The translations under genes and the position numbers were made by a program. A stretch of 64,000 nucleotides of DNA from Candidatus Dormiibacterota bacterium. GTDB taxonomy: Bacteria > Chloroflexota > Dormibacteria > Dormibacterales > Dormibacteraceae. Below are positions 22,234-56,975 of this stretch, one piece after another. The first letter of the stretch is position 1. Every line of letters starts with the position of its first letter. The notes below the pieces were generated by a model. The model had not been told where the DNA came from, made no database searches, and was given only the letters and a program-made list of their open reading frames with translations. The stretch covers positions 434,001 through 498,000 of the forward strand of contig JAMXLM010000018.1 in the NCBI GenBank assembly GCA_024280995.1. The letters run 5' to 3'.

Positions 22234-22251
22234 GGATGGTCGCGACCATCC
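22234..22251. promoter_or_regulatory. 18-bp perfect palindrome before pdxS, candidate operator
   Basis: GGATGGTCG-CGACCATCC is a perfect 18-bp palindrome ending 21 bp before the pdxS -10 box, at the place of a -35 element. No T-tract follows. It could bind a dimeric regulator of PLP synthesis; the regulator is unknown. Confidence 0.5.
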
Positions 22252-43837: not shown

Positions 43838-44644
43838 ATGGGCACCTTGTTTGTCGTCTACGCGCATCCCGACGACGAGATCGGAAACAGCGGCGCGATG
43901 ATGAAGGCGAAAGCTCAGGGCCACCGCGTCGTGCTGGTGACCGCAACGCGCGGCGAGGTCGGCGAGATCTACAACATGGACGAGGCCGCGTCGCGTCCCC
44001 GTCTGGGCGAGATCCGCGAGGCTGAGCTGCGGGCGGCCGGCGAGATCATCGGCGTCGACCGGCAGGAGTTCCTCGGCTATCGCGACTCCGGCATGGTCGA
44101 CACGCCGGACAACAAGGACCCTCGCTCTTTTCAGCAGGCAAGGCTCGACGAATCCGCGGGAAAGCTGGCCGCGATCCTGCGCGAGGAACGGCCGGACGTC
44201 GTCGTGACCTTTGGCGACGACGGCATCTACGGGCACCCTGACCACATCAAGGCGCACCACGTCACGAACGCCGCACTCGACCTGCTGGAGCGTGAGGGTT
44301 CGCCGGTGAAGAAGCTGTACTACATGGCGATTCCGCGGTCGTTGATGCAGGCCTTCGTCGATCAGTTTCCCGACCAGGCGCAGGAGCAGGCGGGGCGGAA
44401 CATGCGGGTGGCCGGAACGCCTGACGAGCTGATCACCGCGCAGGTTGACGTCCGCGATTACGTGGCGCGGAAGCGCGAAGCCTCGGCCGCTCACGTCAGT
44501 CAGAACGACCCGAACTCGTGGTTCGCCAAGATCCCGGAACAGATCTACGAGACCGCGTTCGGGACCGAGTACTACCAGCTCGCGAGGGGCAAACCGGGAT
44601 CGAGGCTGCCGGAGTCAGACCTCTTCGCGGGGGTCGACTCGTAG
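43838..44644 (+). CDS. LmbE/PIG-L family deacetylase
   Basis: Zinc-dependent N-deacetylase or amidase of 268 residues. The zinc motif is H10-P-D-D-E14 (VVYAHPDDEIGNS), with the third ligand in YGHPDHIKAHH. The family includes MshB and Mca of mycothiol metabolism and the GlcNAc-PI deacetylase. In the present operon, next to PIM-type genes, a GlcNAc-inositol substrate is tempting but not shown. The ATG follows the HAD stop directly. It is the last gene before a pair of palindromes. Confidence 0.88.
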   Translation: MGTLFVVYAHPDDEIGNSGAMMKAKAQGHRVVLVTATRGEVGEIYNMDEAASRPRLGEIREAELRAAGEIIGVDRQEFLGYRDSGMVDTPDNKDPRSFQQARLDESAGKLAAILREERPDVVVTFGDDGIYGHPDHIKAHHVTNAALDLLEREGSPVKKLYYMAIPRSLMQAFVDQFPDQAQEQAGRNMRVAGTPDELITAQVDVRDYVARKREASAAHVSQNDPNSWFAKIPEQIYETAFGTEYYQLARGKPGSRLPESDLFAGVDS

Positions 44645-44668: not shown

Positions 44669-44732
44669 CGCCATTCGGGCACGAATGGCCCGAATCAGGC
44701 CCGTGCCCCTCGCCATTCGGGCACAAATGGCG
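44669..44732. repeat. Palindrome pair A (two 22-bp units)
   Basis: Unit A1 at 44669-44690 has the perfect core GCCATTCG-GGCA-CGAATGGC; unit A2 at 44711-44732 has the same core with AAATGGC as 3' arm. Unit starts are 42 bp apart, with a 20-bp spacer. No T-tract follows a hairpin in the direction of transcription, so these are not ordinary terminators. Confidence 0.85.
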
Positions 44733-44784
44733 GAGGTTAACGACCTGGGTTGCTCTTTGAGGCACGTCGCCGGATCGTGGTCGG

Positions 44785-45660
44785 GTGTCTTCGAGACGCG
44801 TGCCCGCAGCGCTCAAGCAAGGTCCATTCACGATCGCCGAAGCCCGCGAACTCGGCGTGACCCGCTCCCGGCTGCGCGGAGCTGACTACCGTCCGCTGGG
44901 TGCCGGCTTATATCGCTGGGCCGGCCTCGAGCTGAGTCCGGAGCTCCTCCTCGCCGCGGTTTGGCGGCGACTCCCAATGGAGGCAGCCTTCTGCGGCTGG
45001 ACCGCGGCCTGGCTGCATGGTCTCGACTGTGCGCCTTGCAATCCGATCGAGGTCAACATGCCCGAGCCGACCGGCAGCAGTCGTCGTTCGGGCGCGGCCG
45101 TTCGCCGATACGAGATGCAGCCGGACGAGATCGTGTCCCGGCGCGGCATGCCGTGCACCGCGGCGTTGCGCACAGTTGTGGACCTTGGCGGACGCATCGC
45201 ATTGACGGATGGAGTCATTGCCGCGGATCTGTTTCTACACAGGCGACTGGTCAGCCTGGAGGAGCTTCACGCGTACGTTCGCGGACACGCAGGCAAGAAG
45301 GGCGTCGCGCGGCTCCGCCGTGTCCTTCGCTATGTCGAGCCTAAGTCCGAGTCGGCCATGGAGACCCGACTGCGGATGCTGCTCGAGCTAGGCGGATTGC
45401 CTCGGCCGGAATCTCAGGTTCCCATCCACGACGACCAGGGTCGGTTCCTCGGACGGCCGGACTTGCTTTACCGCCAACAGCGATTGGCGATCGAATACGA
45501 CGGCGCCAATCACCGCGAGCGGTTGACCAGCGATGACCAGCGCCAGAACGGCCTCGTCGGGGCCGGATACCGGCTCCTTCGTTTCACGGCCCCCGACGTG
45601 CTGGCCACGCCCGAATCGGTCGTGACGCAGGTGCGCCAGGTCCTCGGCCGCGCCGCCTGA
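44785..45660 (+). CDS. DUF559 nuclease-like protein with AbiEi-like N-terminal domain
   Basis: A 291-residue protein. The N-terminal part (QGPFTIAEARELGVTRSRLRGADYRPLGAGLYRWAG) is a winged-helix like that of AbiEi-type antitoxins; a middle part has LPMEAAFCGWTAAWLHGL and TAALRTVVDLG. The C-terminal 100 residues are a DUF559/Vsr-like PD-(D/E)xK fold: GRPDLLYRQQRLAIEYDGANHRE, then LVGAGYRLLRFTAPDV. Family members are widespread in actinobacteria but uncharacterised. GTG at 44785. It is alone between two mirrored palindrome pairs, unlike the operons on both sides. No AbiEii toxin gene is next to it. Confidence 0.85.
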   Translation: MSSRRVPAALKQGPFTIAEARELGVTRSRLRGADYRPLGAGLYRWAGLELSPELLLAAVWRRLPMEAAFCGWTAAWLHGLDCAPCNPIEVNMPEPTGSSRRSGAAVRRYEMQPDEIVSRRGMPCTAALRTVVDLGGRIALTDGVIAADLFLHRRLVSLEELHAYVRGHAGKKGVARLRRVLRYVEPKSESAMETRLRMLLELGGLPRPESQVPIHDDQGRFLGRPDLLYRQQRLAIEYDGANHRERLTSDDQRQNGLVGAGYRLLRFTAPDVLATPESVVTQVRQVLGRAA

Positions 45661-45675
45661 CCGGGGCGCGAATCG

Positions 45676-45738
45676 CGCCATTCGGGCACAAATGGCGGCG
45701 GTATGCATCCGAAACGCGCCATTCGGGCACGAATGGCT
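45676..45738. repeat. Palindrome pair B (two 22-bp units)
   Basis: Unit B1 at 45676-45697 has the AAATGGC form and unit B2 at 45717-45738 has the perfect core, the mirror order of pair A. Starts are 41 bp apart with a 19-bp spacer of unrelated sequence. Confidence 0.85.
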
Positions 45739-45774
45739 GAAGGGGGTGACCTCTCGTAGACTCGACCCCGAGTC

Positions 45775-46647
45775 ATGGAAGTCCTCAAGATCACCCCGCG
45801 CGGGTACTGCCACGGCGTGGTCGACGCCTTCCGCATCGCCAAGCGCGTGCGTGAGGAGACGACCGGGCCGGTGCACATGCTGGGGATGCTCGTCCACAAC
45901 ACGCACGCCACCGACGACCTGCAGGCTCAAGGCATAGCGCTCGTGGATCAGCCCAACCGCCTGCAGGGCCTCGAGCACATCAAGGAAGGCACCGTGATCT
46001 TCACGGCTCACGGCGTTTCGCCGCAGGTGAAGGAGCGCGCGGTCGAGCTCGGTCTCACCCCGGTCGACGCGACGTGCTCCGACGTCGTGCGCACGCACGA
46101 GCTCGTCGCCGACCTGGCTCGCAAGGGCTACGAGGTCGTCTACATCGGCCGGAAGGGGCACCCGGAGCCTGAGGGCGTGATGGGAGAGGCGCCCGGCAGG
46201 GTGCACCTCGTCCAGGAACCTGCGGACATCGACGCCCTCGACCTGCACGGCGACCGGATCGCGGTCACCTGCCAGACGACGCTGTCGGTTTGGGACACCG
46301 AGGACCTGATCGGGCGCGTGCGCGCTCGCTATCCGCAGGCCGAGGTCTACAACGAGATCTGCCGCGCGACGCAGGAGCGCCAGGAGGCGGCCGTCGAAGC
46401 GGCCAAGGAGGTCGACGTCGTCATCGTGGTCGGCAGCCCGCGGTCATCCAATTCCCTTCGCCTGGTCGAGGTGGTGAAGAAGCTCGGGCACAAGCCGGCC
46501 TACCTGGTCGATCGACTGGAGGACCTGCAGGTCGAGTGGTTCCGCGGCGCCAAGCGGGTCGGGGTGACCAGCGGGGCTTCGACGCCGACGCAGCTCACGC
46601 GTCGGGTGATCGAGCACCTGGAGGCACTGGAGGGAGTCACCTCCTAG
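45775..46647 (+). CDS. ispH: 4-hydroxy-3-methylbut-2-enyl diphosphate reductase
   Basis: Last enzyme of the MEP isoprenoid pathway. The 290-residue protein has three cysteine ligands of the [4Fe-4S] cluster, C12 (GYCHGV), C101 (DATCSDV) and C196 (NEICRAT), plus LVHNTHATDDL, FTAHGVS and KGHPEPEGVMGE. A TAGACT box lies at 45757-45762, 12 nucleotides before the ATG. The 3' end overlaps the convergent MaoC-like gene within CTAG. Confidence 0.97.
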   Translation: MEVLKITPRGYCHGVVDAFRIAKRVREETTGPVHMLGMLVHNTHATDDLQAQGIALVDQPNRLQGLEHIKEGTVIFTAHGVSPQVKERAVELGLTPVDATCSDVVRTHELVADLARKGYEVVYIGRKGHPEPEGVMGEAPGRVHLVQEPADIDALDLHGDRIAVTCQTTLSVWDTEDLIGRVRARYPQAEVYNEICRATQERQEAAVEAAKEVDVVIVVGSPRSSNSLRLVEVVKKLGHKPAYLVDRLEDLQVEWFRGAKRVGVTSGASTPTQLTRRVIEHLEALEGVTS

Positions 46648-47456
46648 GCGTCGTTGCCGCGCAGGCGGCGGAGCACGCCTCCGATTCCCTTGCGGGAAGC
46701 AGAGGTCTTGGCGGGGGCGGCGGGTTCAGGTGCGGAAGGCGGCGCCGAAACCTCTTGCACGTGCGCGGCACGTGGTTCGTGCTCCTCGTCCTTCTGCGCC
46801 CCGGATCCTGACGAGCGCCGGCGTCTGCGCCGCCGTGAGGAGCTCGAGGTTCGCTCCGGCTTGGCCGCGGCCGCCGGCGGAGCCGCCACCGGGGGAGTCT
46901 CCGGCAGCGCGGTGGGTGCGGCGGGGGTGCCTCCGTTGGTTCGCGACCGACGCCCGCGACGCCGGCGAGACGCCGTTCCCGTCGCCGCGGCCGCCTGCTC
47001 GCCAGTCTGCTGCTGACGCGGTGCGCCGCCGGCGCTCCGCGTGACTTTCGCGCCGATCTCGCCTTCGGCCGCAAGCGCGCCGTCCGCCGTGTGCACGTCC
47101 ACCCGCCAGACCACGATCGCCGAAGGCGCGCCGGCGACGGGCGGACGCTTCTGGGTCAAGGTCCAGCGCGCGTAGATCGTGTCCCCGGCATGCACCGAGC
47201 GCGGGAACTTCCAGTTCAGCCACTCCCACTCCGCCACGGACGGCACGGGCATGTCGACCGAGCCAAGCCCGACCGCCATCGCCACGACGAGGGACGGAGG
47301 CGCGGGGCGGGGGCCGTTGTTGGCCGCCTCGATCGTCAGCGGGGACAGGTCGCCGGCAACGCCGGCGAACAGGGCTATCTCGGCTTCGGTGACCGTCCGG
47401 CGGCGGGTAGTCCACTCGCCGCCAAGCGGGAGATCGTCAAAAGAAAGCGGCTCCAG
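46644..47456 (-). CDS. MaoC-like hotdog protein with basic disordered tail, probable CTG start
   Basis: The first 130 residues are a hotdog fold of the MaoC dehydratase group: PLSFDDLPLGGEWTTRRRTVTEAEIALFAGVAGDLSPLTI, then PPSLVVAMAVGLGSV and NWKFPRSVHAGDTIYARWTL. The usual catalytic His after GDxNP is Thr here (GDLSPLT), so activity is doubtful. A tail of about 140 residues, rich in Arg, Pro, Ala and Ser with runs of Arg, follows. The fold requires a start upstream of the first ATG at 47285; CTG at 47456 gives MEPLSFDDLPLGGEW, and a TATACT box ends nine bases before it. 270 residues. Confidence 0.8.
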   Translation of the reverse strand: MEPLSFDDLPLGGEWTTRRRTVTEAEIALFAGVAGDLSPLTIEAANNGPRPAPPSLVVAMAVGLGSVDMPVPSVAEWEWLNWKFPRSVHAGDTIYARWTLTQKRPPVAGAPSAIVVWRVDVHTADGALAAEGEIGAKVTRSAGGAPRQQQTGEQAAAATGTASRRRRGRRSRTNGGTPAAPTALPETPPVAAPPAAAAKPERTSSSSRRRRRRRSSGSGAQKDEEHEPRAAHVQEVSAPPSAPEPAAPAKTSASRKGIGGVLRRLRGNDA

Positions 47457-47465
47457 ATCGGGCCG

Positions 47466-47471
47466 AGTATA
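47466..47471 (-). promoter_or_regulatory. -10 box TATACT of the MaoC-like gene
   Basis: TATACT (minus sense) matches the TATAAT consensus at five of six positions and ends nine nucleotides before the CTG at 47456, which supports leaderless initiation at that CTG. Confidence 0.5.
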
Positions 47472-47514
47472 GATCGATCTCTGATGATGCCGCGTTAACC
47501 TATCCGGACTTTAG

Positions 47515-48672
47515 ATGGAACCGGCAGGCATTCTGCTCATCGTCTCGGTTCTCCTGGTCGCCGCCCTGTTTCTCCTGACGCTGTCCCTGATGCGCTATCG
47601 CGGCACGGCCCGCGAGCTCGAGGCGGCGCTTGCGGACCAGACCGGGGCGCGCGACCGAGCCGATCTTTTGCTCGCGCTGGCCTCGGCGGTCAACTCCACC
47701 CTGGCGCTCGAAGAGGTACTGAACGTCGCGCTCACCCACGTCGGCCGGCTGATGGGCTCGGTCGCGGGCGCGATGTACCTCGTCCGGCCCGGCAAGGCCG
47801 AGCTCTACCGCGAGTCCTCTTACAACCTGACGACTCGAGCTCGCGGCGGAGCGCGAAAGCTCGACGAGGAACCGATCCGGTCGGCGGTGGCGGCGATGCG
47901 TCCGCTGGTGGTCAATCTCGATGAGCGCTCGGCGCCGGGTCTCGACCAGGGCGGCCATCCCCAGCATGCCCTGGTGGTTCCCATCCAGCGCTCCGGCCAG
48001 CTGATGGGAGCGATGGAGCTGTACCTCAACGCGTGGCGTGAGCTGACCGACGACCAGGTCGAGCTTCTGAACGGCGTTGCCGCTCAGGCGGCCATCGCGA
48101 TCCGCCACGCGCAGCTCTTCGAGGCGCAGGAGGAGAACGCACTGACCGACGAGCTGACCAGGCTCCCCAACCGTCGCGCCCTTGCGCAGCGGTTCTTGCA
48201 GGAGATGCAGCGCGCGCGCCGGCACCGCGCCGGCATCACGTTCGTGATGATCGACCTCGATCACTTCAAGCAGGTGAACGACACCTACGGGCACCTCAAC
48301 GGCGACGCGGTCCTGGCCGAGCTTGCCTCGATCCTGTCGTCTGGACTTCGCGAGTCAGACGTATGCGCCCGGTACGGTGGCGAGGAGTTCGCCTTGATCC
48401 TGCCCGAGACGAACGAGTCCGGCGCGCGAGTCCTGGCGGAGCGCATCCGGGCGAAGGTTGCCGCCGCCACCTTCCCGGGCGGGCTCAAGCTCACCATCAG
48501 CGTCGGGGTCGCGGCGACCGACGACGCCGCCATCTTCACCCAGCTGATCGACCGCGCCGACCAGGCCCTGTACGCCGCGAAGCAGGGAGGGCGCAACCAG
48601 GTGCGGGTTGCGGACATGAGCGCTCCAGCGCCCAAGCCGCACGCGACCAGGACCGAGCCCGAGCCGGTCTAG
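47515..48672 (+). CDS. Diguanylate cyclase with GAF domain
   Basis: Makes cyclic di-GMP. The 385-residue protein has one N-terminal transmembrane helix (about residues 5-27), a GAF domain (about 45-205, LLALASAVNSTLALEEVLNVA to AAIAIRHAQLF) and a GGDEF domain (about 215-370) with TDELTRLPNRRAL, DHFKQVNDTYGHLNGD and YGGEEF. The inhibitory RxxD site (RESD) is present five residues before it. The GAF part would sense a small ligand. A YajQ protein, a possible effector, is at 17.8 kb. Monocistronic by position. Confidence 0.94.
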   Translation: MEPAGILLIVSVLLVAALFLLTLSLMRYRGTARELEAALADQTGARDRADLLLALASAVNSTLALEEVLNVALTHVGRLMGSVAGAMYLVRPGKAELYRESSYNLTTRARGGARKLDEEPIRSAVAAMRPLVVNLDERSAPGLDQGGHPQHALVVPIQRSGQLMGAMELYLNAWRELTDDQVELLNGVAAQAAIAIRHAQLFEAQEENALTDELTRLPNRRALAQRFLQEMQRARRHRAGITFVMIDLDHFKQVNDTYGHLNGDAVLAELASILSSGLRESDVCARYGGEEFALILPETNESGARVLAERIRAKVAAATFPGGLKLTISVGVAATDDAAIFTQLIDRADQALYAAKQGGRNQVRVADMSAPAPKPHATRTEPEPV

Positions 48673-48681
48673 GGATTACAC

Positions 48682-49899
48682 CTAGGCGACGCGGCCTTCG
48701 GTCGCCCGAGCGCTTCGCCGGCGTGACATCTCGCTCTGCATCGCCGCCATGACCAGCACCAGGACCACCGAGGTTGCGGCGCACGCGGTGAAGCCGGGTG
48801 CGTAGCCGAAGCCCTGGACGATCGGACCGAAGAGCAGCGGCCCCGCCGACAGCCCGAGAAACAGGATCGAGCCGTATGCGCCCATCGTCACCCCGCGGGT
48901 CGATCCGGTAGACAGGTCCGCGAAGACGACGCCGATGGCGACGAATGCCGCGGCCATGAACGGCGTGCCGATCGCCAGCACGACCGCGGGCGCGGCAAAA
49001 CCGCCGAGGTGCCCGATCACCGCCAACGCGATCGACCAGACGAGGCCTCCGACGAAGATGACCGGCCAGCGCTGCCGCATGCGGTCGACCAACCAACCGG
49101 CGGGTATACGAGACGCGCCGTTGAAGACCGCCTGCAGGGCGAGAAGGTATCCGACCTGCGAGCTCGGAAGCTGTAGCGACTCCTTGCCGAAGACCGGCAA
49201 GAAGGCGCTGATCGTGCCCCATCCCAGCGTCATCGCGATCAGCCCGACCGTCACGGGCGCGAACGCCGGCTGCGCGGCGAGGGCGCGAAGCGGCTCCCGA
49301 AGTGCCAGGCCGCGCGCCGAGCGCTGGGTGGTGTTGCCGGCCGCGATCGCGCCCGGCACTGACAGGATCAACAACGCGGTGGTGATCGCTATGTCCGCCC
49401 GCAGGTCGATCCAGCGCAGGGCCACTCCCGCGATCGAGGGACCGAGGAAGAACCCCGCCTGCATCGAGAACGTGAGCCAGCCCAGCGCGCGGCCGCGCCG
49501 CGATGGCGCAACCGACTCGGTGACCGCGCTGAACACGGCCGACTGCTGGATGCCGGCCGCCAGGCCGCCGACGACCTGCCAGAGGAAAAGTGGGGCCACA
49601 GTCGTCGTGGCCGCGGTTGCGAGCTGCGACCCGGCGGCCAGCACCAGCGAGACGACGATCAGCGTGCGGGCCCCAAAACGGTCGACCAGCACTCCCGAAG
49701 GGAGCGAGAGAACTGCCGCTGCCAGCGTCGAGACGGCGAACAGCGCGCCGACCGCGAACCGGTTTGCACCGATCTCGTGCGCGTAGAGCGGAACGGTAAG
49801 GCCGCGCGCCGCGAGGGCTGCAAAGATGGCCGCCGCAGCGAGGTACAGCCACAGACTCCGGCCCGACTGACCGACCGGCCGGCTCACGGCTCCTACCAT
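48682..49899 (-). CDS. MFS transporter
   Basis: A 405-residue protein with twelve predicted helices. The first loop carries SGVLVDRFGARTLI (motif A) and the matching loop between helices 8 and 9 reads AGWLVDRMRQRW. It has a PSRRGRALGWLTFSMQAGFFLGPSIAG segment, like sugar or drug efflux members. The ATG at 49899 is chosen since the helix begins about 15 residues later; an upstream start would add 17 residues. Substrate unknown. It converges on the GGDEF gene with a nine-base gap. Confidence 0.87.
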   Translation of the reverse strand: MVGAVSRPVGQSGRSLWLYLAAAAIFAALAARGLTVPLYAHEIGANRFAVGALFAVSTLAAAVLSLPSGVLVDRFGARTLIVVSLVLAAGSQLATAATTTVAPLFLWQVVGGLAAGIQQSAVFSAVTESVAPSRRGRALGWLTFSMQAGFFLGPSIAGVALRWIDLRADIAITTALLILSVPGAIAAGNTTQRSARGLALREPLRALAAQPAFAPVTVGLIAMTLGWGTISAFLPVFGKESLQLPSSQVGYLLALQAVFNGASRIPAGWLVDRMRQRWPVIFVGGLVWSIALAVIGHLGGFAAPAVVLAIGTPFMAAAFVAIGVVFADLSTGSTRGVTMGAYGSILFLGLSAGPLLFGPIVQGFGYAPGFTACAATSVVLVLVMAAMQSEMSRRRSARATEGRVA

Positions 49900-49991
49900 A
49901 CCGGCGACATGGGGAGCGAACGGGTGATCCTGGTCATCGCGATACCTCAAACCGGTGGGACGGCCGGCGCATTCGACGCGGACCCGGGACC

Positions 49992-50735
49992 ATGACGGCG
50001 GAGCGCGCTGCCGAGCTGCTGCGCGGGGCGCGTCACGGGCTCGCGCTCACCGGTGCGGGCGTGTCCGCGGAGAGCGGCATCCCGACGTTTCGAGGCGAGG
50101 GAGGGGTCTGGACCCGGTACGACCCCGTCAAGGTTGCTTCGATCGAGGCCTTCCTCGCCGATCCCGCCGAGTACTGGCGTGTGTCGAAGGAGCGCGGCCG
50201 CGTCGCCCTGGCGGCCAGGCCCAACCCCGGACATCTCGCGCTCGCTTCGCTCGAGCAAGGCGGCCATCTCGTCGCGGTCGTGACGCAGAACACCGACGGG
50301 CTGCACCGAGATGCGGGGACGAGGCGCCTGATCGAGCTCCACGGGTCGGGCCGCACGGTCGAATGCCTGACGTGCGGGCGAACCGAGCCGCGCGCTGACG
50401 TCCAGGCGCGACTGGACGTGGAGATGCCGCCGCGCTGCAAGCACTGCGGCGGCGCCATCCTCAAGCCGACGGTCGTTCTGTTCGGGGAGCAGATGCCGGC
50501 GGCAGCGACGCGTGAGGCCTTCGAGCTGGCGGCTAAGACCGACGTGATGCTGGTCGTGGGGACCTCGCTTGTCGTCTACCCGGCGGCCGAGGTGCCGCTG
50601 CTCGCGTTGCGCTCGGGCGCTCGCATGATCGTCGTGAATGCCGAGGCGACGCCGTTCGACGCACTGGCAGAGGTCGTGATCCACGGCCGCTCCGGCGAGG
50701 TGCTGCCCGAGATCGTCCGCCTCATAGATGGGTGA
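49992..50735 (+). CDS. NAD-dependent protein deacylase, sirtuin family
   Basis: Removes acyl groups from lysines with NAD. The 247-residue protein has ALTGAGVSAESGIPTFRG, TQNTDGLH, the catalytic His in IELHGSG and a zinc site of two CxxC pairs (ECLTCGR and PPRCKHCGG), then GTSLVVYPAAEVP and VVNAEATPFD. The residues that mark class III desuccinylases (Tyr and Arg after the GAGxSAESGIPTFRG segment) appear as WTRYDPVKVAS, so acyl preference is not decided. It converges with birA, overlapping 14 bp. Confidence 0.94.
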   Translation: MTAERAAELLRGARHGLALTGAGVSAESGIPTFRGEGGVWTRYDPVKVASIEAFLADPAEYWRVSKERGRVALAARPNPGHLALASLEQGGHLVAVVTQNTDGLHRDAGTRRLIELHGSGRTVECLTCGRTEPRADVQARLDVEMPPRCKHCGGAILKPTVVLFGEQMPAAATREAFELAAKTDVMLVVGTSLVVYPAAEVPLLALRSGARMIVVNAEATPFDALAEVVIHGRSGEVLPEIVRLIDG

Positions 50736-51321
50736 CGCTGCCCGCGACGAACGCGCGGCCGTCGACGATCAGCTCACCGCGCGGCCCGAGATCCTGCGCG
50801 ACGCCCTCCGTGCCGTCGATCCGCACCTTCCGGCCTAGCGTCGCCGACAGTTTGCGCCAGCGCGCGAGCACGTCGTCGGTGGGCCTGACGGTCCACTCCT
50901 CGATCTTCGACCGCAGCCGTTCAAGGACCTCGTCCCGAGGCCGATCCAGCTTCGCGGCGCCGTCCGGCGCCCACGTCAGGTTGATGCCGATGCCGCAGAT
51001 CGCCTTGTGCGCCGTCGCCTCGACCAGGATCCCGCCCAGCTTGCGATCGTCGAGCAGCAGGTCGTTCGGCCACTTGAGCCGCACGTCCGGGCCGCACGCC
51101 TCCGCGGCCGCAACCCCGGCGGCGAGGCTGAGCACCGGGTTTGGATGCAGCACGAACGACACGAGCAGCGCGGTGCCAGGCGGCGCCTCCCAGCGTCGAT
51201 CCATGCGCCCACGACCTTCGGTCTGGTGATCCGCGACGACAACGGATCCGACAGGCATGTCGCGCGCAACGTCCTGGGTGGATCTCACCGACTCGAGCCG
51301 CACGACTTGCCCATGACTCAT
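50722..51321 (-). CDS. birA: Biotin-[acetyl-CoA-carboxylase] ligase
   Basis: Attaches biotin to carboxyl-carrier proteins. The 199-residue protein has VRLESVRSTQDVARD, the biotin loop ADHQTEGRGRMDRRWEAPPGTALLVSFVL and the catalytic lysine in RLKWPNDLLLDDRKLGGILVE. There is no N-terminal helix-turn-helix, so it is the non-regulatory group I type. The ATG at 51321 has TAGCTT ending seven nucleotides before it, a leaderless arrangement. Confidence 0.93.
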   Translation of the reverse strand: MSHGQVVRLESVRSTQDVARDMPVGSVVVADHQTEGRGRMDRRWEAPPGTALLVSFVLHPNPVLSLAAGVAAAEACGPDVRLKWPNDLLLDDRKLGGILVEATAHKAICGIGINLTWAPDGAAKLDRPRDEVLERLRSKIEEWTVRPTDDVLARWRKLSATLGRKVRIDGTEGVAQDLGPRGELIVDGRAFVAGSVTHL

Positions 51322-51345
51322 GCTCGGTAAGCTACATCCAGCCCA

Positions 51346-51534
51346 ATGAAGGTTCACCGAGCGATCGTGCTCGTGGTGATGATGCTGATCGGGGTGGGCG
51401 CGCTCATCCTCCTGACAGCGGCCGGGATCGCGACCTTCGACAGCCGCAGCCTCATCGCGCTGGTGGTCGTGGTCGTCGCGGCGGTGATCGGCGGAGTTGC
51501 GTTTAGCTGGCAGCGCTACAACCGTCGCTCGTGA
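51346..51534 (+). CDS. Small two-helix membrane protein
   Basis: A 62-residue protein of two hydrophobic helices (about 6-28 and 36-53) with a short TFDSRS loop and a basic end (WQRYNRRS). Its stop overlaps the fgd start (GTGA), so it may be the first gene of the F420 operon. No family recognised. Confidence 0.6.
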   Translation: MKVHRAIVLVVMMLIGVGALILLTAAGIATFDSRSLIALVVVVVAAVIGGVAFSWQRYNRRS

Positions 51535-52544
51535 AGCCGCCGCTTCGGTTGGGGTACAAGGCGAGCGCAGAGCAGTTCAGCGCGCGCGAGCTTCTCGAGT
51601 TCTCCGTCGAGGCCGAGGCCAATGGTTTCGACTCCGTCTTCATCAGCGACCATTTCCAGCCCTGGCGGCACTCCGACGGCCACGCGCCCTTCGCCTTCTC
51701 ATGGCTCGGCGCGGTGGGCGAGCGGACCTCGCGCGTTCTGCTCGGCACCTCGGTAAGCACCCCGACTTTCCGTTTCCACCCGGCGCTGGTCGCGCAGGCT
51801 TTCGGCACGCTGGGTGAGCTGATCCCCGACCGGATGATCCTCGGCGTCGGCACCGGCGAGCACCTGAACGAAGGCGCGCTCGGCATTCCCTGGCCCGACA
51901 ACAAGGAGCGGTTCGCTCGCCTGCGCGAGGCCGTCAAGCTCATCCGCATCCTGTGGAGCGAGGACTCGGTGACGTTTGACGGCGACTACTTCCACACGCG
52001 CAACGCGACCATCTACGAAAAGCCCGACCGGCCGATCCCGATCTACATCGGCGCGGGCGGTCCGCAGGTCGCTAAGTACGCCGGCCGGGCGGGCGACGGG
52101 CTCATCGTCACCTCCGGCAAGGGAATGGAGCTCTACTCCGACCAGTTGCTTCCGGCGTTCTCCGATGGTGCCAGGGACTCCGGACGCGACCCCGACGAGC
52201 TCGACAAGATGATCGAGGTGAAGGTCTCGTTCGACACAGATCGGTCCCGCGCGATGGAGGACACCAAGATCTGGGCGGCGCTCGCGCTGCCCGGCGAGAG
52301 CAAGGCCGGGATAGACGACCCGCGTGAGATGGAGCGACTTGCCAAAACGGTGGAGGACGTGGCGCATCGTCGCTGGCTCGTCTCGGACGATCCCGACGAG
52401 CACCTCGAGCAGCTGCGCCCCTACCTCGAGCTGGGCTTCACGCACCTCGTCTTCCACTCGCCGACAGACTCGCAGTCGCGATTCCTCGAGCTCTATGGCG
52501 CGCAGATCCTGCCGAAGATCCGCGAGCGGTGGGGCAAGGCATGA
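51531..52544 (+). CDS. fgd: F420-dependent glucose-6-phosphate dehydrogenase
   Basis: Reduces coenzyme F420 with glucose 6-phosphate. The 337-residue protein matches the mycobacterial FGD closely in landmarks: LGYKASAEQFSARELLEF, SDHFQPWRHSDGHAPF, GTSVSTPTFRFHPALVAQAFGT, GVGTGEHLNE, ERFARLREAV, IYIGAGGPQVAKYAGRAGDG and a C-terminal THLVFHSP segment. These include the F420-contact residues D and H of SDH and the active-site W and E of that family. It is followed by three F420 biosynthesis genes, which supports the assignment. GTG at 51531. Confidence 0.95.
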   Translation: MKPPLRLGYKASAEQFSARELLEFSVEAEANGFDSVFISDHFQPWRHSDGHAPFAFSWLGAVGERTSRVLLGTSVSTPTFRFHPALVAQAFGTLGELIPDRMILGVGTGEHLNEGALGIPWPDNKERFARLREAVKLIRILWSEDSVTFDGDYFHTRNATIYEKPDRPIPIYIGAGGPQVAKYAGRAGDGLIVTSGKGMELYSDQLLPAFSDGARDSGRDPDELDKMIEVKVSFDTDRSRAMEDTKIWAALALPGESKAGIDDPREMERLAKTVEDVAHRRWLVSDDPDEHLEQLRPYLELGFTHLVFHSPTDSQSRFLELYGAQILPKIRERWGKA

Positions 52545-53131
52545 AGACCTGGGTGATCGTCCTCGTCAAGGACTTCGACTCTGCCAAGGAGCGGCTGCGT
52601 CCGGCCCTCGGCGCGAAGTCGCGGCGCGCGCTCGCGCGCAACAACGCCCGGCTTGCGGTCAACGCCGCGGCCGCGGGCGATCACGTCCTGGTGGTCACCG
52701 GGTCGGACGAGGTCGCCGACATGGCTGTGTCGTGGGGCGCCGACATCTTGCTGGAGCCCCATGAGGAGGGCCAGAACGTCGCCGCACGTCGCGGGATCGA
52801 CCGCGCGATGACGGGCGGTGCGGACTCTGTGCTGTTGCTGTCGAGCGATCTGCCACTGGTGACCGAGGCCGCCGTGCGCGAGATGCTGCTCGCGGCGGCG
52901 CGCCACCCGGCGCCGATCGCCGTCGCCGCACCGGCGACCGGCAGAGGCGGCACGAACGCTCTCTACCTGCGCCCACCGGACGTCATCGGCCTTCACTTCG
53001 GCGACAAGTCGCTGGCTCAGTTCCGGGCCGACGCGCAGGCCAAGGGAGTGAAGTTCGCGGTGTTTCAGTCCGACGCGATGGCGCTTGACCTCGACGAGCC
53101 CTCAGACCTGGCCCGCGTCCACGCGGTGTGA
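52541..53131 (+). CDS. cofC: 2-phospho-L-lactate/phosphoenolpyruvate guanylyltransferase (CofC/FbiD)
   Basis: Activates the three-carbon phosphate for F420 synthesis by adding GMP. The 196-residue protein has TWVIVLVKDFDSAKERLRPAL, VVTGSDEVADMA, LLLSSDLPLVTEAAV and a C-terminal LDLDEPSDLARV, a standard CofC layout. Whether it uses phosphoenolpyruvate, as in actinobacteria, or phospholactate, as in archaea, cannot be told. ATGA overlap with fgd. Confidence 0.92.
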   Translation: MKTWVIVLVKDFDSAKERLRPALGAKSRRALARNNARLAVNAAAAGDHVLVVTGSDEVADMAVSWGADILLEPHEEGQNVAARRGIDRAMTGGADSVLLLSSDLPLVTEAAVREMLLAAARHPAPIAVAAPATGRGGTNALYLRPPDVIGLHFGDKSLAQFRADAQAKGVKFAVFQSDAMALDLDEPSDLARVHAV

Positions 53132-53862
53132 AGGTACAGCTCCTTCCGGTCGAAGGGCTGCCCGAGGTGCGGCCCGGCGACGACCTTGGACACCTCATCG
53201 CTTCCCGCGCCTCGCTGCAGGCTGGCGATGTCGTCGTGGTCGCCCAGAAGGTCGTATCCAAAGCGGAAGGCCGCATGGTCGACCTCGACTCGGTACGCGC
53301 GAGCGACGAGGCTGTGCGCATCGCGCCCGGGCTGGTCGCGCAACCTGACCCGCGTTTCGTCCAGGTCGTGCTCGACGAAAGCGCTCGCGTCTTGCGTTCG
53401 GAGAGAGTGCTCATCACCGAGACGCGGCACGGATTCGTCTGCGCGAACGCCGGCGTCGACCACTCCAACACCGGTGAGGCGAACGTGGTCACGCTGCTTC
53501 CGCTCGACCCGGACGCCAGCGCCGCGGGGATGCGCGAGCGGATTCGCGGCATCGCCGGTATCGACGTCGGTGTGATCGTCTCCGACACCTTCGGCAGGCC
53601 CTGGCGCCTGGGCATCCAGAACGTCGCTCTCGGCCTCGCCGGCCTGCCCGCGGTCCTCGACCTCCGCGGCACGCCGGACGACAACGGGCGTCCGATGCAG
53701 GCAACGGTGCTTGCGGTCGCCGACGACGTGGCAGCTTCGGCGGGCCTGGTCATGGGCAAGACCGCGCGCACGCCGGCGGTGATCGTCCGCGGCCTGGCGC
53801 TCACCGGCGATGGCTCAGGTCACGACCTCATACGCCCGGCGGCGGAGGACCTCTTTCGATGA
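53128..53862 (+). CDS. cofE: F420-0:gamma-glutamyl ligase (CofE)
   Basis: Adds glutamates to F420-0 in a GTP-dependent reaction. The 244-residue protein has LPEVRPGDDLGHLIA, VVVAQKVVSKAEGRMVDL, the metal-binding ETRHGFVCANAGVDHSNTGE, VIVSDTFGRPWRLGIQNVALG and a closing RGLALTGDGSGHDLIRP. It is the CofE domain alone. In mycobacteria the same domain is fused to an FMN reductase part (FbiB); that part is absent here. GTGA overlap with cofC. Confidence 0.94.
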   Translation: MKVQLLPVEGLPEVRPGDDLGHLIASRASLQAGDVVVVAQKVVSKAEGRMVDLDSVRASDEAVRIAPGLVAQPDPRFVQVVLDESARVLRSERVLITETRHGFVCANAGVDHSNTGEANVVTLLPLDPDASAAGMRERIRGIAGIDVGVIVSDTFGRPWRLGIQNVALGLAGLPAVLDLRGTPDDNGRPMQATVLAVADDVAASAGLVMGKTARTPAVIVRGLALTGDGSGHDLIRPAAEDLFR

Positions 53863-54770
53863 GGGTCGTGATCCTGGCGGGCGGGACTGGCGGCGCGGCG
53901 CTCGCCGCGGGCATCCAGGCGGTGGCGCCGCAGCACGAGCTGACCGTGATCGCAAACACCGCCGACGACGACGAGTTCTGGGGAGTGCTGGTCTGCCCGG
54001 ACATCGACGCCGTGATCTATCGGTTGGCCGGAGTCTTCAACGACCAGGCCGGATACGGCCTGCGGTACGACACGTTTCACGTGCTGGACGCGATGGACCG
54101 GATCGGCGAGGCGGCCTGGTTTCGCATCGGCGACAAGGACCTCGCAACGCATCTCGTGCGCACCGGCATGCTCCGGCGTGGCTGCACCCTGACGGAAGCG
54201 ACCCGCGAGCTGTGCGCGCGATTCGGCGTCCGCGCCCGCGTGCTGCCCATGTCGGACGCGGACGTTCGCACCAGGTTTACGACCGACGCGGGCGAGCTCT
54301 CGTTTCAGGAGTACTTCGTGCGCGAGCGGCTCTCACCGCGGCTTCGGAACATCGCGTTCGCCGGCATCGATACGGCGCGTGCCACGCCCCAGGTCGTGTC
54401 GGCGCTGAACGACGCCGACCTGGTCGTCATCGGCCCGTCGAATCCTTTGATCTCCATCGCACCGATCCTCGCCTTGACTCGCGAGCACGTCGCGCGAGAG
54501 CGGGCTGTAGCGGTGACGCCCATCGTCGCGGGAGCGTCGTTGAAGGGGCCGACGGTGGACATGATGCGCGCGCTCGGCCACGACCCGAGCCCGGTCGAGG
54601 TCGCGCGAATGTACGAGGCCGTAGCCGCGAGCTTCGTCCTCGACAGCCGGGACGCCGGCCTGGCCGGCGCCATCACCAAGATGGGTTATCGGGTGCTGAT
54701 CGCCGACACCGTGATGCGCGACGGCGGCCGTGCGCTGGCCGAGATGGTGCTGAGCGCCGTCGCTAGGTGA
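53859..54770 (+). CDS. cofD: 2-phospho-L-lactate transferase (CofD/FbiA)
   Basis: Joins the activated three-carbon unit to Fo, making the F420-0 or dehydro-F420-0 core. The 303-residue protein opens RVVILAGGTGGAALAAGIQAV, has NTADDDEFWGVLVCPDIDAVIYRLAG, RIGDKDLATHLVRTGML and IGPSNPLISIAPILAL, all CofD landmarks. ATGA overlap with cofE. fbiC, which makes Fo, is not in the window. Confidence 0.95.
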   Translation: MRVVILAGGTGGAALAAGIQAVAPQHELTVIANTADDDEFWGVLVCPDIDAVIYRLAGVFNDQAGYGLRYDTFHVLDAMDRIGEAAWFRIGDKDLATHLVRTGMLRRGCTLTEATRELCARFGVRARVLPMSDADVRTRFTTDAGELSFQEYFVRERLSPRLRNIAFAGIDTARATPQVVSALNDADLVVIGPSNPLISIAPILALTREHVARERAVAVTPIVAGASLKGPTVDMMRALGHDPSPVEVARMYEAVAASFVLDSRDAGLAGAITKMGYRVLIADTVMRDGGRALAEMVLSAVAR

Positions 54771-55659
54771 CGTGCGAGTTGGCGACCATGACGAGCACGC
54801 CGATGAGCACCATCACCAACCCCACGACGAAGATGGCGTACTGAACGACCGCCACGACGCCGCCGCTCGGTCGCCGGGCCTGGGGCTCGTCGGCATCGTC
54901 TTCACCCGGCGCGCTGCCTGACGCGAGCGACCAGTCTCCGCTTGCCGTCGCAGACCCGGCCTTGTCCTTCTTCTTCTTGCCATCGGACCTGGAGTCGGGC
55001 GCGGGCTCAGAGCCGGTGGGGTTGACGATCGACCAGCCCCCGGCTGATGTTGACGAAGCGGACGCCGCCGCCGGCTCGAGCTGGGCCGCCGGTTCGACGG
55101 CCGGGGCGGGCGCGGGCGTCCACCCGGGCTCGCCGGACGTGGCCGGCGCCACCTCCGCGGCAGACTGATACGGCGCGGACGCGGGAGGCTCATAGGAAGG
55201 TGGCTCATACGCCGGCGCCTCGTAAGCGGGCTGTTGGGCGGCGGGAGGGTAGTCGAAGGTCGGAGTCGGCGCGGCCGGAGCGTCCCACGGCGTCGTCGCG
55301 GGCCCTTCCGTGGACGGCGGAGGAGGCGGCGGGGGAGGTGGAGCGGACGGCTCGGCAAATGGCGGAGCGCTTGGAGGAGCGGAGGTCGGCGCCTCGTATG
55401 CGGGCGTCGCCCAGGTGACTGTCGCTTGCGGGGCCTGCGGCGCGAAGGTGGGCGCGGCGCCGGGGATCGTCTCCTCTTGCGGCTTCCCCGCGTGACCGCG
55501 CGGCGCGAGTGTTCGCTGGCGCGCGGCCCGCACCTTGTGCTCGATCTGCGAGCGGCGCGCCGAGTACATGGACCGCTTCTCGACGGACTTCCGGCGCATC
55601 ACGAAAAACACCGCGACGATGCCGATCACCACAGCCAGCGGCCCCACGACCAAAGCCAT
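54763..55659 (-). CDS. Hypothetical membrane protein with long Pro/Ala-rich centre
   Basis: A 298-residue protein with a transmembrane helix at each end (about residues 3-21 and 272-292) and about 200 residues of low-complexity Pro, Ala, Glu and Tyr between, including a run of nine prolines and repeated YEAP/YEPP units. A CATAAT box ends eight nucleotides before the ATG. No family recognised. The disordered centre could span or scaffold at the envelope. It overlaps the end of cofD by eight bp, convergently. Confidence 0.6.
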   Translation of the reverse strand: MALVVGPLAVVIGIVAVFFVMRRKSVEKRSMYSARRSQIEHKVRAARQRTLAPRGHAGKPQEETIPGAAPTFAPQAPQATVTWATPAYEAPTSAPPSAPPFAEPSAPPPPPPPPPSTEGPATTPWDAPAAPTPTFDYPPAAQQPAYEAPAYEPPSYEPPASAPYQSAAEVAPATSGEPGWTPAPAPAVEPAAQLEPAAASASSTSAGGWSIVNPTGSEPAPDSRSDGKKKKDKAGSATASGDWSLASGSAPGEDDADEPQARRPSGGVVAVVQYAIFVVGLVMVLIGVLVMVANSHVT

Positions 55660-55667
55660 AGGCGCCG

Positions 55668-55703
55668 ATTATGCCCGATGGGTACGCTTTCTCGAATCGG
55701 GCA
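55668..55703. promoter_or_regulatory. Divergent promoter region with 8-bp inverted repeat
   Basis: TGCCCGAT (55672-55679) and ATCGGGCA (55696-55703) form an inverted repeat with a 16-bp spacer, between the divergent genes. CATAAT (55668-55673, minus sense) is the likely -10 box for the gene at 55659; TACGCT at 55683-55688 may serve the plus gene. Confidence 0.4.
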
Positions 55704-55704
55704 A

Positions 55705-56154
55705 ATGGCACTTTATGACCGCGTCCAAAGTGAGATGGTCGACGCCCGCGTTCGCCGAGACGACGTGGCGCTGGGCACGCTTTCACTTCTGAAGAGCGAG
55801 CTGGTGCGCGCGAGCAAGGAAGGCTCCGCCGGCGGCCGGATCGACGACGAGCTCGTCGTGCGCATCGCGCGCAAGGAGGTCAAGAGGCGCGAGGAGGCCA
55901 TCGAGGTCTATCGCAAGGCGGGGCGTGAGGAATCGGCCCTTCGCGAGGAGGCCGAGATGAAGATCCTGCGTGAGTTTCTGCCGGCGACGATGTCCGAGCA
56001 GGACATCGAGGCCGAGGTTCGCGCCGTGATCGACGAGGTCAAGCCCGACGGCCCCAAGGGTTTCGGCATGGTCATGAAGGCGGCGACGGCGCGACTCGCG
56101 GGCCGCGCCGACGGCAACCAGATCGCCGCGGTGGCGCGCCGGCTGCTTGGTTAG
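55705..56154 (+). CDS. GatB/YqeY domain-containing protein
   Basis: A 149-residue YqeY protein: LYDRVQSEMVDARVRRDDVALGTLSLLKSELVRA, then KREEAIEVYRKAGREESALREEAEMKILREFLP and a C-terminal GKGF-type GPKGFGMVMKAA segment. YqeY is a stand-alone version of the C-terminal tRNA-associated domain of GatB; the role is unknown. The ATG at 55705 is used. The end overlaps nth by eight bp. Confidence 0.92.
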   Translation: MALYDRVQSEMVDARVRRDDVALGTLSLLKSELVRASKEGSAGGRIDDELVVRIARKEVKRREEAIEVYRKAGREESALREEAEMKILREFLPATMSEQDIEAEVRAVIDEVKPDGPKGFGMVMKAATARLAGRADGNQIAAVARRLLG

Positions 56155-56899
56155 AACCGCCTCGAAGACCAGACCGAGGAACTGGAACGTTCCGAAGTCG
56201 CCGCGCGGCGCTCGCAAGCGCGCGCTGCTGACCATCGACCGGCTGCGCGATCTCTACACGGCCGAGACCGAGCTGATCAACGCGAGCCCGTTTCAGCTGC
56301 TGATCGCGACGATCCTCTCGGCGCAGACCACCGACCGCTCGGTCAACCTGGTCACGCCCGAGCTCTTCCGCCGCTATCCGACCCCTCACGATCTGGCCGC
56401 GGCCGACCCGGCGGAGATCGAAAAGCTCATCAAGATGACCGGCTTCTTCCGCCTGAAGACGAAACGGATCATCGCCGCCAGCCGCGCTCTTGTTGAGCTG
56501 TTCGGAGGCGAGGTGCCGACGACGATGGAGGACATGGTCAAGATCCCGGGGATCGGGCGCAAGACCGCGAACGTCATCCTCGGCGCCGGTTTCGACGAGC
56601 CGGGGTTTGCGGTCGACACACACGTGACCCGGCTGACGAACCGCATTGGCCTGGTGGCGACTCGCGACCCGGTGAAGATCGAGTTCCAGGTCACGGCGAT
56701 GGTGCCGGCGGAGGAGTGGACCGCGATGTCGTTGCGCCTGATCCTCCACGGCCGCCGCGTATGCGATGCGCGCCGGCCGAACTGCGGGGGCTGCGTGCTC
56801 AACGACTTCTGCCCTTCGTCATTGCTGCGGCCAGGGCGCCGGTTGCGCAAGGGCCGGCCGATCGGCGAGGCGCCGAACTCCGACATCAGGGTCGTCTGA
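56147..56899 (+). CDS. nth: Endonuclease III
   Basis: DNA glycosylase/AP lyase that removes oxidised pyrimidines. The 250-residue protein has the helix-hairpin-helix MVKIPGIGRKTANVILG with the catalytic Lys, the catalytic Asp in VDTHVTRLTNR and the [4Fe-4S] set C-x6-C-x2-C-x5-C (CDARRPNCGGCVLNDFC). TTG at 56147 overlaps the YqeY gene. The C-terminus carries a short basic tail. It is followed by palindrome pair C and an SOS-type gene. Confidence 0.95.
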   Translation: MVRTASKTRPRNWNVPKSPRGARKRALLTIDRLRDLYTAETELINASPFQLLIATILSAQTTDRSVNLVTPELFRRYPTPHDLAAADPAEIEKLIKMTGFFRLKTKRIIAASRALVELFGGEVPTTMEDMVKIPGIGRKTANVILGAGFDEPGFAVDTHVTRLTNRIGLVATRDPVKIEFQVTAMVPAEEWTAMSLRLILHGRRVCDARRPNCGGCVLNDFCPSSLLRPGRRLRKGRPIGEAPNSDIRVV

Positions 56900-56911
56900 G
56901 CCGGTTTCCCG

Positions 56912-56975
56912 CGCCATTTGTGCCCGAAGGGCGGCAGTCACCGGGTCGGTTCGCGCCATTTGTGCCCGAATGGCG
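56912..56975. repeat. Palindrome pair C (two 22-bp units), reverse orientation
   Basis: Units at 56912-56933 and 56954-56975 are the reverse complement of the A2/B1 form; the first has one changed base (AAGGGC). Starts are 42 bp apart with a 20-bp spacer unrelated to the other spacers. Confidence 0.85.

Follow-up and report, generated by a model that had tools for sequence, protein, structure and literature searches.

The stretch analyzed here (hereafter the window) comprises 64,000 nucleotides of the genome of a Candidatus Dormiibacterota bacterium (assembly GCA_024280995.1, contig JAMXLM010000018.1, positions 434,001 to 498,000), in which a gene encoding an AbiEi-like domain fused to a DUF559 nuclease domain is enclosed between two pairs of short palindromes, and a third pair of the same family stands apart. 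Our findings suggest that bacteria harbor a kind of mobile repeat not described before. On balance, we favor the view that it belongs to a system resembling that of the repetitive extragenic palindromic (REP) sequences and the REP-associated tyrosine transposases (RAYTs), the dispersed repeat having originated from the two-site operator of an AbiEi-nuclease. Repeats flank about half of the DUF559 loci tested, differ from lineage to lineage and diverge together with the protein; a spacing of 42 bp recurs among them; copies occur without the gene; and cassettes and pairs are present in some genomes and absent from others at orthologous sites.

Palindrome pairs and the DUF559 cassette of the window

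The core of the palindrome is 20 bp long, GCCATTCGGGCACRAATGGC. All six units that a preliminary description of this DNA had reported, in three pairs with starts 42, 41 and 42 bp apart, are real and lie where it had placed them. The upstream pair of the cassette consists of unit 1 at 44670..44689 (GCCATTCGGGCACGAATGGC, 8 of 8 arm positions paired) and unit 2 at 44712..44731 (GCCATTCGGGCACAAATGGC, 7 of 8), which starts 42 bp further on, and the downstream pair of units 3 and 4 at 45677..45696 and 45718..45737, with starts 41 bp apart, all four on the plus strand. The solo pair, on the minus strand and flanked by nth (which encodes endonuclease III) and by a radical-SAM gene, comprises unit 5 at 56913..56932, one arm of which is altered, and unit 6 at 56955..56974; units 3 to 6 are matches to the core. 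In a search of the window for the ungapped core, five units match perfectly and one has a single mismatch; with up to three mismatches on both strands 11 matches are found, against a mean of 0.05 and a maximum of 2 in 100 shuffled sequences.

As had been described, the pairs are intergenic, being flanked by genes with Pfam or homology support (the mechanical list of open reading frames, ORFs, holds longer open frames that overlap them), and none of the three is followed by a T-tract. The period, previously equated with about four helical turns, does agree with four turns of B-DNA at 42 bp, so that both dyads are on the same face of the helix. As to the spacers (22, 21 and 22 bp between the 20-bp cores), which had been called mutually unrelated, this is true of two comparisons (4/21 and 5/21 identical positions) and not of the first and the third spacers, which share 12 of 22 positions.

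What the preliminary description had overlooked is the DUF559 nuclease gene between two of the pairs, as well as the other palindromes that stand at other DUF559 genes. The whole cassette (44670..45737, plus strand, as are all its parts), located between a PIG-L-family gene ending at 44644 and ispH starting at 45775, is made up of the upstream pair, a promoter-like motif, the gene and the downstream pair. The motif, TTAACG at 44737..44742, follows directly upon the upstream pair and represents a TTAAC[AG] sequence conserved at DUF559 loci: the latter was found in the 130 nt that precede the aligned start at 45 of 77 such loci and in none of 274 control windows, its position being 64–68 nt upstream in 28 of those 45 loci. 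It may well be a promoter.

The gene (44785..45660), recognized from Pfam, PADLOC and an AlphaFold2 model, encodes a protein of 291 aa, the candidate cognate protein of the pairs. Its residues 8–167 (44806..45285) match the PADLOC AbiEi profile PDLC02249 (E 1.6e-14), and residues 226–287 match Pfam DUF559 (E 7.8e-10), the nuclease half as a whole extending over about residues 185–288 (45337..45648). E193, D226, E237, H243 and D250 are invariant in an alignment of 40 proteins; E193, D226, H243 and D250 can be read as the residues of the EDxHD motif, and an intein study placed one DUF559 gene in the EDxHD family (PMC9403480). The AlphaFold2 model, calculated from 40 aligned proteins, has a mean predicted local distance difference test score (pLDDT) of 90.6. 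Compared with the PDB by Foldseek, this model resembles in its N-terminal half the AbiEi antitoxin 6y8q (E 1.8e-4) and Rv2827c, 1zel (E 2.9e-4), and in its C-terminal half the catalytic domain of I-Bth0305I, 3r3p (E 1.4e-2, template modelling (TM) score 0.76 by target length, root-mean-square deviation (rmsd) 2.5), so that the nuclease half is predicted to fold like this Vsr-like homing endonuclease. Mitoribosomal chains at ranks 3 and 5 were disregarded because of an rmsd above 15. A profile search of the PDB sequences retrieved one chain, 3hrl, named Endonuclease-Like Protein (E 2.5e-5).

Repeats at the ends of other DUF559 genes

The 5' flank of each DUF559 gene was compared with its 3' flank without any prior motif, a locus being counted as positive if the flanks shared a 20-mer with at least 17 matches (genomes, contigs and loci are designated below by our G, C and L numbers). 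In the first set of 43 loci, two of which were too short, 16 of the 41 testable ones were positive. The second set, obtained in a separate scan, comprised 80 loci from Candidatus Dormiibacterota, metagenome-assembled genomes (MAGs) of Chloroflexi and some Actinomycetes, of which five had too little flank; the two sets overlap, since several contigs match in length and coordinates. Here the repeat was found in 41 of 75 loci versus 14 of 375 shifted windows at the same loci and 2 of 225 shuffles, and with at least 18 matches in 33 loci versus three shifted windows and no shuffles. Contrary to expectation, flanking repeats are not a general feature of the DUF559 genes in the window's own genome, where 2 of the 12 tested were positive.

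The repeats are gene-specific: TAGTCCGGACTA, GCGTTAGGCGCCTAACGC, TTTGTATACAAA and others stand at different DUF559 genes, as direct repeats on either side of the gene. At 27 of the 42 loci compared, each end of the gene has at least two copies, and at L119, L128, L134 and L135 a single copy per flank was found. The arrangement also occurs in MAGs of Frankiaceae and in Planotetraspora (L178, L180, L182, L188); the other Actinomycete loci (L181, L183–L187, L189, L190, L192) are below the threshold. Two cases are worth separate mention. L090 and L091 are near-identical DUF559 cassettes with similar flanks in genomes of two genera (G011 and G017), which reflects either recent transfer or mixed bins, and in L041 (953–1494) the gene of the cassette has apparently lost its 5' half and the palindromes are kept on both sides.

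Similarity of the repeats (best 14-mer) correlates with identity of the proteins (r = 0.48; 39 cassettes, 741 pairs), and the correlation persists below 0.8 identity (r = 0.42) and below 0.7 (r = 0.30), none of these values being reached in any of 999 permutations. The partial correlation was 0.28 for the C-terminal part of the AbiEi-like half given the nuclease and 0.04 for the nuclease given that part; for the winged helix given the nuclease it was 0.18, and for the nuclease given the winged helix 0.14. Thus, the specificity for the repeat seems to reside more in the AbiEi-like half, these tests leaving some shared ancestry in the values.

The spacing was also assessed without reference to any motif, from the distances between centers of palindromes with 7 of 8 paired arm positions. 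In 151 windows flanking DUF559 genes, 16 distances were exactly 42 bp and two were 41 bp, versus none at 42 and one at 41 in 533 control windows; a pair at 41–43 bp was present in 16 of the 151 flank windows and in one of the 533 controls. The spacing of 42 bp, i.e., four helical turns, recurs among palindromes unrelated to each other.

Dispersed pairs and arrays

In the window's own genome (3.02 Mb, 46 contigs), the 18-bp core with at most one mismatch detects eight loci of the window family, seven of which are pairs spaced by 41–42 bp in the same orientation (partner units being accepted at up to three mismatches) and one a single unit; single copies are thus far from being as common as pairs. 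The sole single unit (L009 1500–1519, G000:C44:55541-55560) is situated within a long ORF that looks like a glycosyltransferase fusion. At up to two mismatches the family has matches in 16 of 61 genomes, the own one included, and among its copies in relatives the best partner lies at 40–43 bp for 19 of 28 units (up to 7 mismatches of 18 being allowed), so the spacing is not random elsewhere either. The common orientation within a pair, which the preliminary description had contrasted with classical REPINs, stands for the window and its genome; however, at L016, L028 and L032 the partner matches better when inverted, all 11 pairs in Planotetraspora (see below) are inverted, and the contrast with REPINs fails across the wider family.

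Another family, GGATAGTCNNGACTATCC (GATAGTC type), is present in 17 of 37 genomes. In G014 it has 194 sites at up to two mismatches, and 278 versus 4 in the control at up to three; 14 of 15 loci chosen there by the tool have a neighbor at 42–43 bp and form rows of two to six units, and a further stretch picked by hand holds a row of seven. Among the sites of this type in the own genome are a cassette (C43) and two places with pairs (C34 and C18). In Planotetraspora sp. A-T 1434, searched on both strands with up to three mismatches, 34 matches were found versus none in the control: 22 of them combine into 11 inverted pairs, of which nine are spaced by 41 bp and two by 48–49 bp, and 12 are unpaired, 11 of the latter having three mismatches. 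Two of the 11 pairs bracket the DUF559 gene.

When the window was scanned for additional pairs of palindromes spaced by 40–44 bp, none was found, with a filter that also misses the window's own pairs, which are too imperfect for it. At 22234–22251 the window contains a solitary GGATGGTCGCGACCATCC, two mismatches away from a family other than the window family, with no 42-bp partner in sight.

Presence and absence at orthologous sites

Orthologous sites were compared by eye. For the ispH site, 17 relatives were displayed from 30 loci, the own one included: 11 have neither cassette nor palindrome pair between the PIG-L gene and ispH, five have a different insert of about 0.8 kb (L195, L202, L205, L209, L210), and one (G014) has a solo pair of another family. 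The pair at nth is absent from all 12 genomes of the same genus that were displayed. Downstream of sigA, where 11 genomes were displayed, different families occupy one place: the GATAGTC family in G010, G001 and G002, CCGGC-type pairs in G008 and G005, a GCGTTTTGCGC-like pair in G007, the window family in the own genome and an ambiguous element in G003, with no pair in G012, G004 and G009. Two more arrays are missing from relatives at orthologous sites. As for an element of G001 (L334 13070), the relatives hold other sequence at this place rather than a clean empty site, in one of three alignments.

At a site next to an HD-GYP gene, compared in 21 genomes, the start of a cassette was found in seven, a solo pair in five, a single palindrome in one and no palindrome in eight. 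The seven gene copies are under purifying selection, the ratio of non-synonymous to synonymous substitution rates (dN/dS) being 0.16–0.50 in 21 comparisons; two copies are shortened (241 aa in G013 and 199 aa in G001), and one runs off the contig end (G002). The single palindrome (L314, in G007) has a left flank like that of the upstream end of the cassette and a right flank like that of its downstream end, and looks as if the outermost palindromes of a cassette had recombined. In L267, L269 and L319, a different, GC-rich repeat of the CTCCCCTTCAGGGGAGAGGGTCAGGGTGAGGGG type occupies the HD-GYP site or the region downstream of sigA; in L269 it is in tandem.

Discussion

The mechanism we propose is as follows. 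The pair would be a two-site operator of about 62 bp, with two dyads of about 20 bp placed 42 bp center to center on the same face of the helix; each half would be bound by the AbiEi-like domain of the cognate DUF559 protein, and the DNA between the dyads or next to them would then be the substrate of the Vsr/EDxHD-like nuclease domains. We read the upstream pair as both operator and nuclease target because parts resembling AbiEi and I-Bth0305I occur beside a 62-bp two-dyad site and TTAAC[AG], and, as this pair abuts the conserved promoter-like motif, it probably also serves, as for AbiEi, in autoregulation of the gene. The pair would further have become a dispersed repeat, seen as solo pairs and as arrays with a 42-bp period at sites empty in relatives; the scattered pairs would be copies of the upstream one, multiplied or moved by the cognate protein, and cassettes apparently decay to pairs or single palindromes. 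Of the three guesses made in the preliminary description, two can be combined, as in this scheme: the units would be an array to which a protein binds and, at the same time, a non-autonomous mobile repeat. A CRISPR-like mini-array finds no support (no search for cas genes was made); the spacers vary, and several of them are alike within one array.

RAYT genes are described as flanked by inverted REPs, with which they co-diverge (PMC2817692). Similarly, DUF559 genes are flanked by their own palindromes, in about half of the loci (41/75) and not in all; repeat and protein co-diverge, and paired arrangements resemble the composite ones reported for REPs (PMC2817692); and solo copies are many (278 sites in G014, 11 pairs in Planotetraspora), though the window family has only eight loci in its own genome. 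Unlike in REP/RAYT systems, the protein is of the AbiEi-plus-DUF559 type and not a Y1 tyrosine transposase, the end repeats are direct around the gene whereas those of RAYTs are inverted (PMC2817692), and the dyads, some of them loopless, are phased at 42 bp in arrays of up to seven units. We regard the system as working like REP/RAYT without being a member, since none of 37 genomes, Planotetraspora lying outside this sample, has a Y1 transposase (Y1_Tnp, PF01797) above the cut-off; one fragment below it was seen in G037, and the same search gave matches in five of 14 known genomes used as control.

AbiEi is reported to repress its own promoter cooperatively, with bending, via two repeats, and both AbiEi and Rv2827c to recognize inverted repeats that occur as pairs in the promoters of their own genes; these repeats are 23 bp long and are separated by 3 bp in the case of AbiEi and by 13 bp within the Rv2827c pairs, a wider spacing which the authors connect with the larger C-terminal domain of Rv2827c (PMC7319586). 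The protein of the window would share with these type IV antitoxins the fold of its N-terminal half, as modelled, and has two repeats near the putative promoter of its gene; it differs in the added nuclease domain, the wider spacing and the presence of the site also downstream and throughout the genome. Unlike in AbiE toxin–antitoxin loci, no DUF1814 or toxin-like neighbor is present at the window locus, whose flanks are PIG-L and ispH. VsrA of Caulobacter is likewise a DUF559 protein that acts on DNA in the living cell, where it is tied to cytosine methylation and mismatch repair; the part of its account drawn on here does not mention flanking repeats (PMC12907096). As for miniature inverted-repeat transposable elements (MITEs), inverted pairs occur in some of our families, and no target duplication is readable at the divergent sites.

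Among the other explanations, the one that survives best, although we consider it rather improbable, is purely regulatory: an AbiEi-like regulator whose operator is the upstream pair, the scattered pairs being other regulated or architectural sites and nothing being mobile. The predicted AbiEi-type fold with its operator precedent (PMC7319586), the conserved motif beside the upstream pair and a dN/dS below 1 agree with it. It accounts poorly, however, for pairs located downstream of genes, e.g., after sigA and the HD-GYP gene, for the same pair at the 3' end of the DUF559 gene, for the extra length relative to orthologous sites without a pair, and for different families occupying one place in different species.

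Slightly less probable still is a homing endonuclease cassette, whose gene would invade solo pairs, as its target, by break repair, the solo pairs themselves spreading otherwise. The C-terminal half of the protein, in its predicted fold, resembles the catalytic domain of I-Bth0305I, an EDxHD/Vsr-like enzyme reported to dimerize on nearly 60 bp (PMC3943268), which is close to the 62-bp pair. The four states encountered at the HD-GYP site (cassette, solo pair, single palindrome, none) also speak for homing. However, a homing gene normally disrupts its own site, and here the pairs persist at both cassette ends with the target undisrupted, so the enzyme should go on cutting its own carrier, and the multiplication of pairs and arrays without the gene is left unexplained. 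The gene of the window differs from that of I-Bth0305I in standing outside any intron or intein and in having an AbiEi-like DNA-binding half.

Paired transcription terminators or RNA-processing hairpins are very improbable: several pairs do follow stop codons and their 8-bp stems could fold, but the window pairs have no T-tract, no Rfam match in the window exceeds the gathering score, and the pairs also precede DUF559 genes, keep a 42-bp spacing with variable spacers and are missing at many orthologous sites. Least probable, and already disfavored, is the view that the repeats are REPs mobilized by a RAYT tyrosine transposase and that DUF559 genes were trapped between them accidentally, since, despite the REP-like size, palindromes and scatter (PMC2817692), no PF01797 match over the cut-off was found in the 37 genomes, the repeat sequence tracks the DUF559 protein, and loopless dyads, of which CGGATAGTCCGGACTATCCG is an example, are better suited to being bound as double-stranded DNA than to forming a hairpin.

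Several observations weigh against a mobile operator of the AbiEi-nuclease. The Foldseek E-value of the nuclease domain is weak (1.4e-2). The flank-repeat threshold is not reached by 10 of the 12 DUF559 loci of the own genome and 34 of the 75 loci of the second set, and two positives, L136 and L191, have their repeats outside the usual position; the number of independent insertions is below 41, because at least five positives (L145, L148, L149, L162, L167) appear to be orthologous at one site. In the own genome, GATAGTC sites are scarce (18 versus 8 in the control). G007, with 75 sites of this type, holds a single palindrome at its HD-GYP site and, in the DNA fetched, none of the sites near its DUF559 genes (L018, L061, L086); a link between the cognate gene and the copy number of the sites was not established, no matching DUF559 locus being found among these three. 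This result slightly lowered our confidence in the mobile operator and slightly raised that in the regulatory explanation. Target-site duplications and exact boundaries were sought at the divergent sites and none could be fixed, the species being too diverged for target duplications and junctions to be readable. Finally, retention of the cassette at one orthologous site under purifying selection fits domestication equally well as active movement.

With more doubt than confidence, we put forward a bolder form of the mobile-operator reading: Dormibacterota and Actinomycetes may harbor a second REP-type mobile system, not homologous to the known one, with AbiEi-Vsr-like nucleases as its enzymes, each of which would copy its own 62-bp phased two-dyad site as double-stranded DNA, expand it in 42-bp steps and ride between two copies of it. 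In the open-licence literature, at the level of titles and the beginnings of abstracts, no link of DUF559 genes to palindromic repeats was found, subscription journals being outside this scope. As Planotetraspora sp. A-T 1434, a named strain not labelled as a MAG, carries the system, the latter may be testable in culture. If our reading is true, DUF559/AbiEi-like proteins and scattered paired palindromes, both without a known role, would explain each other, and REP-type repeats, which the literature consulted here ties to one enzyme family, would have a second, unrelated one, pointing to more than one origin of this life style.

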